Positions 39,707 through 39,847 of a DNA stretch of 64,000 bases are shown piece after piece. Position numbers and translations under genes: made by a program. Origin of the DNA: Terriglobales bacterium (lineage in GTDB: Bacteria; Acidobacteriota; Terriglobia; Terriglobales; Acidobacteriaceae); contig JAICXB010000007.1 in assembly GCA_025980765.1 (NCBI GenBank), positions 1 to 64,000 of the forward strand, in the 5' to 3' direction. Below the pieces are notes generated by a model. The model was not told the DNA's origin and made no database searches. It saw only the letters and a list, made by a program, of their open reading frames with translations. Each line of letters opens with the position of its first letter. The first letter of the stretch is position 1.

Positions 39707-39847
39707 TCAGTGACAGGTGGGAGCAGTCTCTGCGCTCTCCACCGGCTTCACATTGCTGTGGCAGGTTGGGGCCACTTCAGCAGTCTCAACCAGTTTCACA
39801 TTGGTATGGCAAGTCGGAGTAACTTCAGCGATATCGATAATCTTCAT
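39707..39847 (-). CDS. Putative RiPP precursor peptide, 46 aa, three 16-aa repeats each containing PTCH
   Basis: Minus-strand ATG at 39847, TGA at 39707-39709: MKIIDIAEVTPTCHTNVKLVETAEVAPTCHSNVKPVESAETAPTCH. AAGGAG 8 nt upstream of ATG. Repeats 1 and 2 differ mostly at third codon positions. Upstream of DUF692/MNIO on the same strand. Confidence 0.88.
   Translation of the reverse strand: MKIIDIAEVTPTCHTNVKLVETAEVAPTCHSNVKPVESAETAPTCH

Follow-up and report, generated by a model that had tools for sequence, protein, structure and literature searches.

Several described MNIO-dependent pathways resemble parts of the locus reported here. In the captophorin, bufferin and oxazolin systems (HvfABC, BufABC and FonABC) the precursor gene is followed by the MNIO gene and then by that of a partner protein, the cysteines lie in short repeated motifs (EGKCG/CxK), and several sites are served by one MNIO. 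Captophorins are made by thiooxazole chemistry, and fontiphorin/oxazolin has repeated cysteine sites with one modification per repeat (PMC12668002). In the pearlin/3-thiaglutamate pathway (TglH-TglI) the enzyme has a PME-type 2 partner and the modified cysteine, which is near the C-terminus, is appended. In the aminopyruvatide pathway (ApyH-ApyI) a methyltransferase works after the MNIO, and ApyH illustrates that an MNIO may require a conserved cysteine of its substrate and still leave it unmodified.

The cluster described here lies in the window, by which we mean the whole 64,000 nucleotide stretch of DNA, from a Terriglobales soil bacterium, that was analyzed. It begins with a short precursor gene, followed by genes for an MNIO (DUF692) oxidase and a partner protein, while a gene for an EgtD-fold methyltransferase is divergent from the precursor. 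The gene order, the repeated cysteine motifs and the prospect of one MNIO serving several sites are shared with the captophorin, bufferin and oxazolin systems, but here there is no signal peptide, the partner has no DUF2063 match, the MNIO is without the D-x-H motif, the cysteines fall in P-x-C-H motifs with a period of 15-16 amino acids, and the EgtD-fold methyltransferase is additional. TglH-TglI provides the closest solved fold, a similar type of partner and a modifiable cysteine near the C-terminus, whereas here the cysteine is ribosomally encoded and repeated. The aminopyruvatide enzymes give the best NCBIfam scores (for the MNIO, and for the partner in Gemmatimonadota), but the C-terminal Asp, the P450 and the B12 radical SAM enzyme of that pathway are absent here and the methyltransferase belongs to another family. 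EgtD, the histidine N-alpha-methyltransferase of the ergothioneine pathway, resembles the window methyltransferase along its whole-chain fold, but here the enzyme is linked to a RiPP-like cluster and its histidine-recognition residues are changed.

As predicted from its genes, the cluster looks like an MNIO RiPP pathway with a new precursor type, a new enzyme subfamily and a new tailoring enzyme. We consider it probable, at roughly 60%, that the precursor is a multi-site RiPP precursor whose cysteines are oxidized by the atypical MNIO, with methylation following, and the genetic linkage suggests to the same degree that one short peptide with two to four repeated substrate sites defines an undescribed MNIO-dependent class. 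Such a class would add to MNIO biology a tiny precursor type composed only of P-x-Cys-His repeats, a subfamily without the third-iron ligands that every comparison MNIO has, and a genetic association with a methyltransferase of the EgtD fold. The main text of a study of the MNIO landscape (PMC12452194) gives precursor families and contains no Acidobacteriota, Gemmatimonadota, methyltransferase or Cys-His class, its figures and supplements lying outside this comparison. A literature search for MNIO together with EgtD returned nothing relevant, with most subscription papers outside its scope.

The repeat-only precursor gene

The precursor ORF extends from 39707 to 39847 on the minus strand (start at 39847, stop codon included) and encodes 46 amino acids, MKIIDIAEVTPTCHTNVKLVETAEVAPTCHSNVKPVESAETAPTCH, then stop. 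It is made up of three units ending in PTCH, namely unit 1 (MKIIDIAEVTPTCH, 14 amino acids, 39806-39847), which is two residues shorter than the others, unit 2 (TNVKLVETAEVAPTCH, 16 amino acids, 39758-39805) and unit 3 (SNVKPVESAETAPTCH, 16 amino acids, 39710-39757), all on the minus strand. The initial annotation described an in-frame 48 bp tandem repeat in an ORF that stops right after the third PTCH, and both observations were borne out. The TGA occupies 39709-39707, Tandem Repeats Finder reported a period-48 array at 39736-39829 (score 118), and identity at a lag of 48 was 0.667, compared to 0.353 at the runner-up lag and far above the peak of 0.529 reached in 5,000 codon shuffles. The units differ from one another at 36% (units 1 and 2), 29% (units 2 and 3) and 40% (units 1 and 3) of bases.

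A ribosome-binding site, AAGGAG, graded good/strong, is located 5' of the ATG at 39856-39861 (minus strand), and an RBS-like purine stretch is also found 5' of the precursor orthologues. No separate leader or signal peptide is evident in the precursor; by inspection, precursors start with MKIIDIAEVTPTCH or MQIVETQEL and contain no hydrophobic stretch of the kind expected of a Sec signal peptide. The precursor had no match in NCBIfam or Pfam, and a promoter and terminator scan gave results near chance.

One scan of the GTDB species collection, in which the neighboring MNIO was the query, produced 29 orthologous loci, every one in Acidobacteriota or Gemmatimonadota. Nearly all of these that had enough flank contained a short ORF built in the same way, adjoining the MNIO in nearly all such loci, and genome searches added more, giving 21 distinct peptides encoded by 29 distinct DNA sequences. 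The motif P-x-C-H is kept in 70 of 71 units (PTCH in 49, PSCH in 17 and PACH in 4), and the remaining unit reads PTSH. PTCH is invariant, as had been claimed, in the three units of the window, while across orthologues the rule is P-[T/S/A]-C-H; orthologues that keep the spacer without the motif were not the pattern found, and neither stops nor frameshifts were seen in the orthologous precursor ORFs. The gene is under purifying selection, with pN/pS of 0.20 in the 46 amino acid set and 0.26 in the 30 amino acid set. Although the ORF is very short, the conservation of 29 distinct DNA sequences, these ratios and the RBS-like stretch already contradict the idea of a chance ORF antisense to something else, to which we assign a negligible likelihood, and the precursor ORF is a real gene. 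When 396 Acidobacteriota were searched for a DNA pattern of two P-x-C-H codon blocks, real matches occurred only in the window; the others seemed unrelated or repeat DNA, and none of five such loci that were checked had an ORF of this design.

Acidobacteriota precursors have a period of 15-16 amino acids and three units in 11 of 11 species seen, whereas those of Gemmatimonadota have a period of 15 and two units in nearly all cases, with four in one locus (L022). Comparing units at matching positions across species gave smaller nucleotide distances (0.178 and 0.122) than comparing the units of a single gene with one another (0.310 and 0.263), which indicates that the repeats are old and neither in flux nor being homogenized. 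Copy number is a lineage trait (2, 3 or 4), and the suggestion that it may vary between strains did not hold, since the number differs between lineages only. A modification site at the extreme C-terminus, also proposed previously, agrees with the Cys-His end of the acidobacterial peptides but not with the Gemmatimonadota, which end in PTCHS, or in PACHR in L022; C-termini across all orthologues are CH, CHS, CHA or CHR. In one locus from the same genus as the window (L063), the cysteine is lost from unit 1, which reads PTSH, with units 2 and 3 remaining intact. Because the motif is conserved and the gene lies inside a cluster of modification enzymes, modification at each Cys-His is plausible, which retains part of the proposal that all PTCH sites are equivalent; full equivalence is doubtful given the unit without cysteine in L063.

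Repeated Cys-His might bind Zn or Cu directly, and the precursor would then be an unmodified metal-binding peptide that is merely a neighbor of the MNIO. We find this very unlikely in view of the strict co-occurrence with the MNIO, the partner and the methyltransferase across two phyla, and of the presence of only one cysteine per 15-16 amino acids.

An atypical MNIO and its partner protein

The MNIO gene lies at 38732-39628 on the minus strand with a probable start at MPELPQDR, although a longer ORF opens at 39691. Its product matches PF05114 (DUF692) with 105.1 bits (cut-off 25). The best NCBIfam score was to ApyH (111.6 bits, cut-off 400) and the second to BufB (98.7 bits), placing the protein far under the equivalog cut-offs of BufB, HvfB and ApyH, and it also fell below that of MbnB (14.1 bits, cut-off 325). 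An AF2 model (pLDDT 82) had TglHI (8hi7) as its best PDB fold, followed by the DUF692 protein 3bww and MbnBC.

The metal-ligand residues of TglH were taken from PMC10880893. Five of the six ligands of irons 1 and 2 are kept and invariant in the family (TglH H71, H107, E151, D184 and H216, corresponding to H57, H90, E137, D170 and H201), while the sixth, Glu258, aligns with Thr243, around which the alignment is less certain, with Asp245 two residues on. As for the third iron, no member of the family has the D-x-H motif (TglH Asp229 and His231), and Asn187 is replaced by His173. We compared these with 32 other MNIOs, 30 from Acidobacteriota genomes (including a second MNIO of the source genome) and two rhizobial; D-[T/S/D]-H is present in all 32 and E-x-D in all but one. 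The cluster MNIOs form a monophyletic family with 100/100 support on a very long stem. One further sequence, L102, groups with the family, but it was left out, as the great length of both branches means that this grouping could be an artifact. The second MNIO of the source genome (G000:C3:131400-132182, locus L001) scores 359 bits against PF05114 and has an ordinary D-T-H and E-x-D. In a tblastn search of plasmids only distant MNIOs were found (<60% identity), and the annotated Shinella neighborhood was that of an ordinary DUF2282 bufferin cluster.

The TglH third-iron mutants D229A and H231A retained some activity (PMC10880893), which makes it plausible that the cluster MNIO works with two irons. 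The missing ligands thus do not exclude catalysis, and the protein is predicted to be a variant within the MNIO superfamily; that neither D-x-H nor the E-x-D glutamate is kept could reflect either altered chemistry or an impaired enzyme. Whether MNIOs need two or three irons is debated for MbnB and TglH, and natural enzymes that lack the Asp and His of the third site offer a direct way to test the question.

The partner gene (37906-38646, minus strand) follows the MNIO gene in nearly all loci and encodes a PME-type-2-like, RRE-type protein with weak HvfC/ApyI similarity and a winged-helix/RRE-like C-terminus. It scored 21 bits against HvfC (cut-off 142) and had no Pfam match to DUF2063 (PME-type 1); a profile comparison with structures gave marginal winged-helix domains as best matches, with PqqC/D at an E value of 0.53, while the best NCBIfam score of a Gemmatimonadota partner was to ApyI. 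From its sequence the partner fits the PME-type 2 proteins in the main text of PMC12452194.

These comparisons bear on whether the product is a copper chelator like the captophorins or bufferins, in which four-electron oxidation by the MNIO would turn each cysteine to a 5-thiooxazole, which would bind copper together with the next His. The single modification per repeat in fontiphorin/oxazolin (PMC12668002), the metal-binding side chain that follows each cysteine and the second rank of BufB are all consistent with this. However, the partner lacks a DUF2063/PME-type 1 match, there is no signal peptide, neither DoxX nor DUF2282 was present among the genes examined, the MNIO is far below the BufB, HvfB and ApyH cut-offs and has different metal ligands, and an EgtD-fold methyltransferase is added. 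We therefore consider a copper chelator unlikely, though it deserves to be taken seriously.

The EgtD-fold methyltransferase and conservation of the cluster

The SAM methyltransferase gene (PF10017; 40075-41031, plus strand) is transcribed divergently from the precursor gene, next to which it is conserved. In an AF2 model (pLDDT 93), all of the top 15 PDB matches were EgtD with a TM of about 0.8, the next family being near 0.4, while the score against the EgtD equivalog (67.3 bits) was below the cut-off of 290.9. In EgtD, Tyr56, Tyr206 and Ser284 bind the carboxylate and Asn166 holds the alpha-amine (PMC8593015). A profile alignment indicated that the three carboxylate-binding residues are invariant (Y59, Y210 and S281 in the window) and that Tyr39 is also kept, while Asn166 is replaced by Ala175, Thr213 by Asn and Glu282 by Ser or Asn. 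We take Glu282 to be the residue that recognizes the imidazole, in line with a PDB title that names a tryptophan-binding EgtD variant, M252V,E282A. Since the carboxylate residues are kept and the amine and imidazole residues are changed, the substrate should be a compound with a free carboxylate other than free histidine. No canonical EgtD scored over the cut-off in any of nine cluster-carrying genomes, so an ordinary ergothioneine pathway using that enzyme is not indicated.

The methyltransferase is the divergent neighbor in every locus with that flank in both phyla, with 48-61% identity to the window copy in Acidobacteriota and 39-44% in Gemmatimonadota. Among 41 relatives, the MNIO and the methyltransferase were found in the same 8 genomes, a ninth methyltransferase match (G411, 75 bits) being distant; among 200 Gemmatimonadota the same 6 genomes had both, plus G451, whose locus also has the precursor. 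In both sets the distribution is patchy and accessory. Two metagenome-assembled genomes have frame breaks, in the MNIO (L030:4001-4599) and the methyltransferase (L025:1820-2645), representing assembly error or decay. In Gemmatimonadota loci an aldo/keto reductase gene separates the precursor from the MNIO, and most of these loci have an OpuC/EgtU-type (quaternary-amine-type) ABC transporter directly behind the methyltransferase (e.g. L009:1-1726, L031:609-2820), whereas in Acidobacteriota ABC genes have no linkage to the cluster. The ABC binding protein keeps only part of its aromatic cage; in L021 and L031 the TDG position is occupied by Asn. In an acidobacterial locus (L005:1312-2635), a MarR-like regulator and, by eye, an arsenite-methyltransferase-like gene lie beyond the methyltransferase. 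A Fe/Mn superoxide dismutase gene downstream of the cluster (37143-37745, minus strand) is linked in the closest acidobacterial loci only and is therefore probably not core. Neither a protease nor a dedicated exporter could be recognized among the cluster genes.

The transporter raises the prospect that the peptide is a scaffold for building a small amino acid from Cys/His; this amino acid would then be released, as 3-thiaglutamate is from TglA, trimethylated to a betaine by the EgtD-like enzyme and handled by the ABC system in Gemmatimonadota. The retained carboxylate-binding residues, the placement of the methyltransferase in one gene string with a transporter of the quaternary-amine family in most Gemmatimonadota loci, and the closeness of the MNIO fold to TglH would suit such a route, but the replacements at Asn166 and Glu282, the unlinked ABC genes of Acidobacteriota, the Asn at one aromatic cage position and the lack of any protease or PEARL gene seen argue against it, and we regard it as improbable.

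Under the multi-site precursor reading that we favor, every unit would contain, ahead of its P-x-Cys-His site, an acidic-hydrophobic recognition segment of its own (V/I-E-x-x-E-L/V), which would make a separate leader unnecessary. The MNIO-partner complex would bind this segment and, probably by means of a center of two irons instead of three, oxidize the cysteine unit by unit, leaving a sulfur-containing group beside the His imidazole. The methyltransferase would then methylate the product, most likely at a group near a free carboxylate, and the product, kept in the cell or released as small pieces, may serve in metal binding or redox reactions through its thiol/imidazole groups. This last function is a guess from the Cys-His motif and from the superoxide dismutase adjacent in the closest loci only. 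Points that count against the favored reading are the changed iron ligands of the MNIO, the ApyH precedent of a cysteine that is needed but left unmodified, and the lack of a recognizable protease or dedicated exporter gene in the cluster. A long shot is that a two-iron MNIO carries out a new reaction on Cys-His dyads that are then methylated by an EgtD-derived enzyme, possibly a ribosomal route to a thiol-histidine betaine like ergothioneine or ovothiol. If the methyltransferase does act on a Cys/His product, RiPP chemistry would be linked to histidine betaines.

Other repeats in the window and in relatives

An A+T-rich imperfect inverted repeat at 39962-40042 (no strand assigned), in the intergenic region between the divergent genes, contains ATCGGGTAAT. 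Related ATCGGGT-type tandem units of 8/16 bp occur at window positions 7658, 15373, 17944, 17997, 20484 and 20542 and resemble a dispersed intergenic repeat family. In an unrelated acidobacterial genome (G254; L045, L050, L052 and L055-L057), several arrays of a roughly 43 bp repeat (CCACCATGTCACAGCGTTGCACTCTCGGTGCACACGTGCGCACC) gave chance matches to the P-x-C-H codon pattern. Window positions 61497-61738 contain two arrays of a 28 bp repeat with 14 bp half units (AGGCGTTTCAGGAAAACCGCTTCAAGAA), which are separated by about 75 bp; the second array is similar to the first in reverse-complement orientation.
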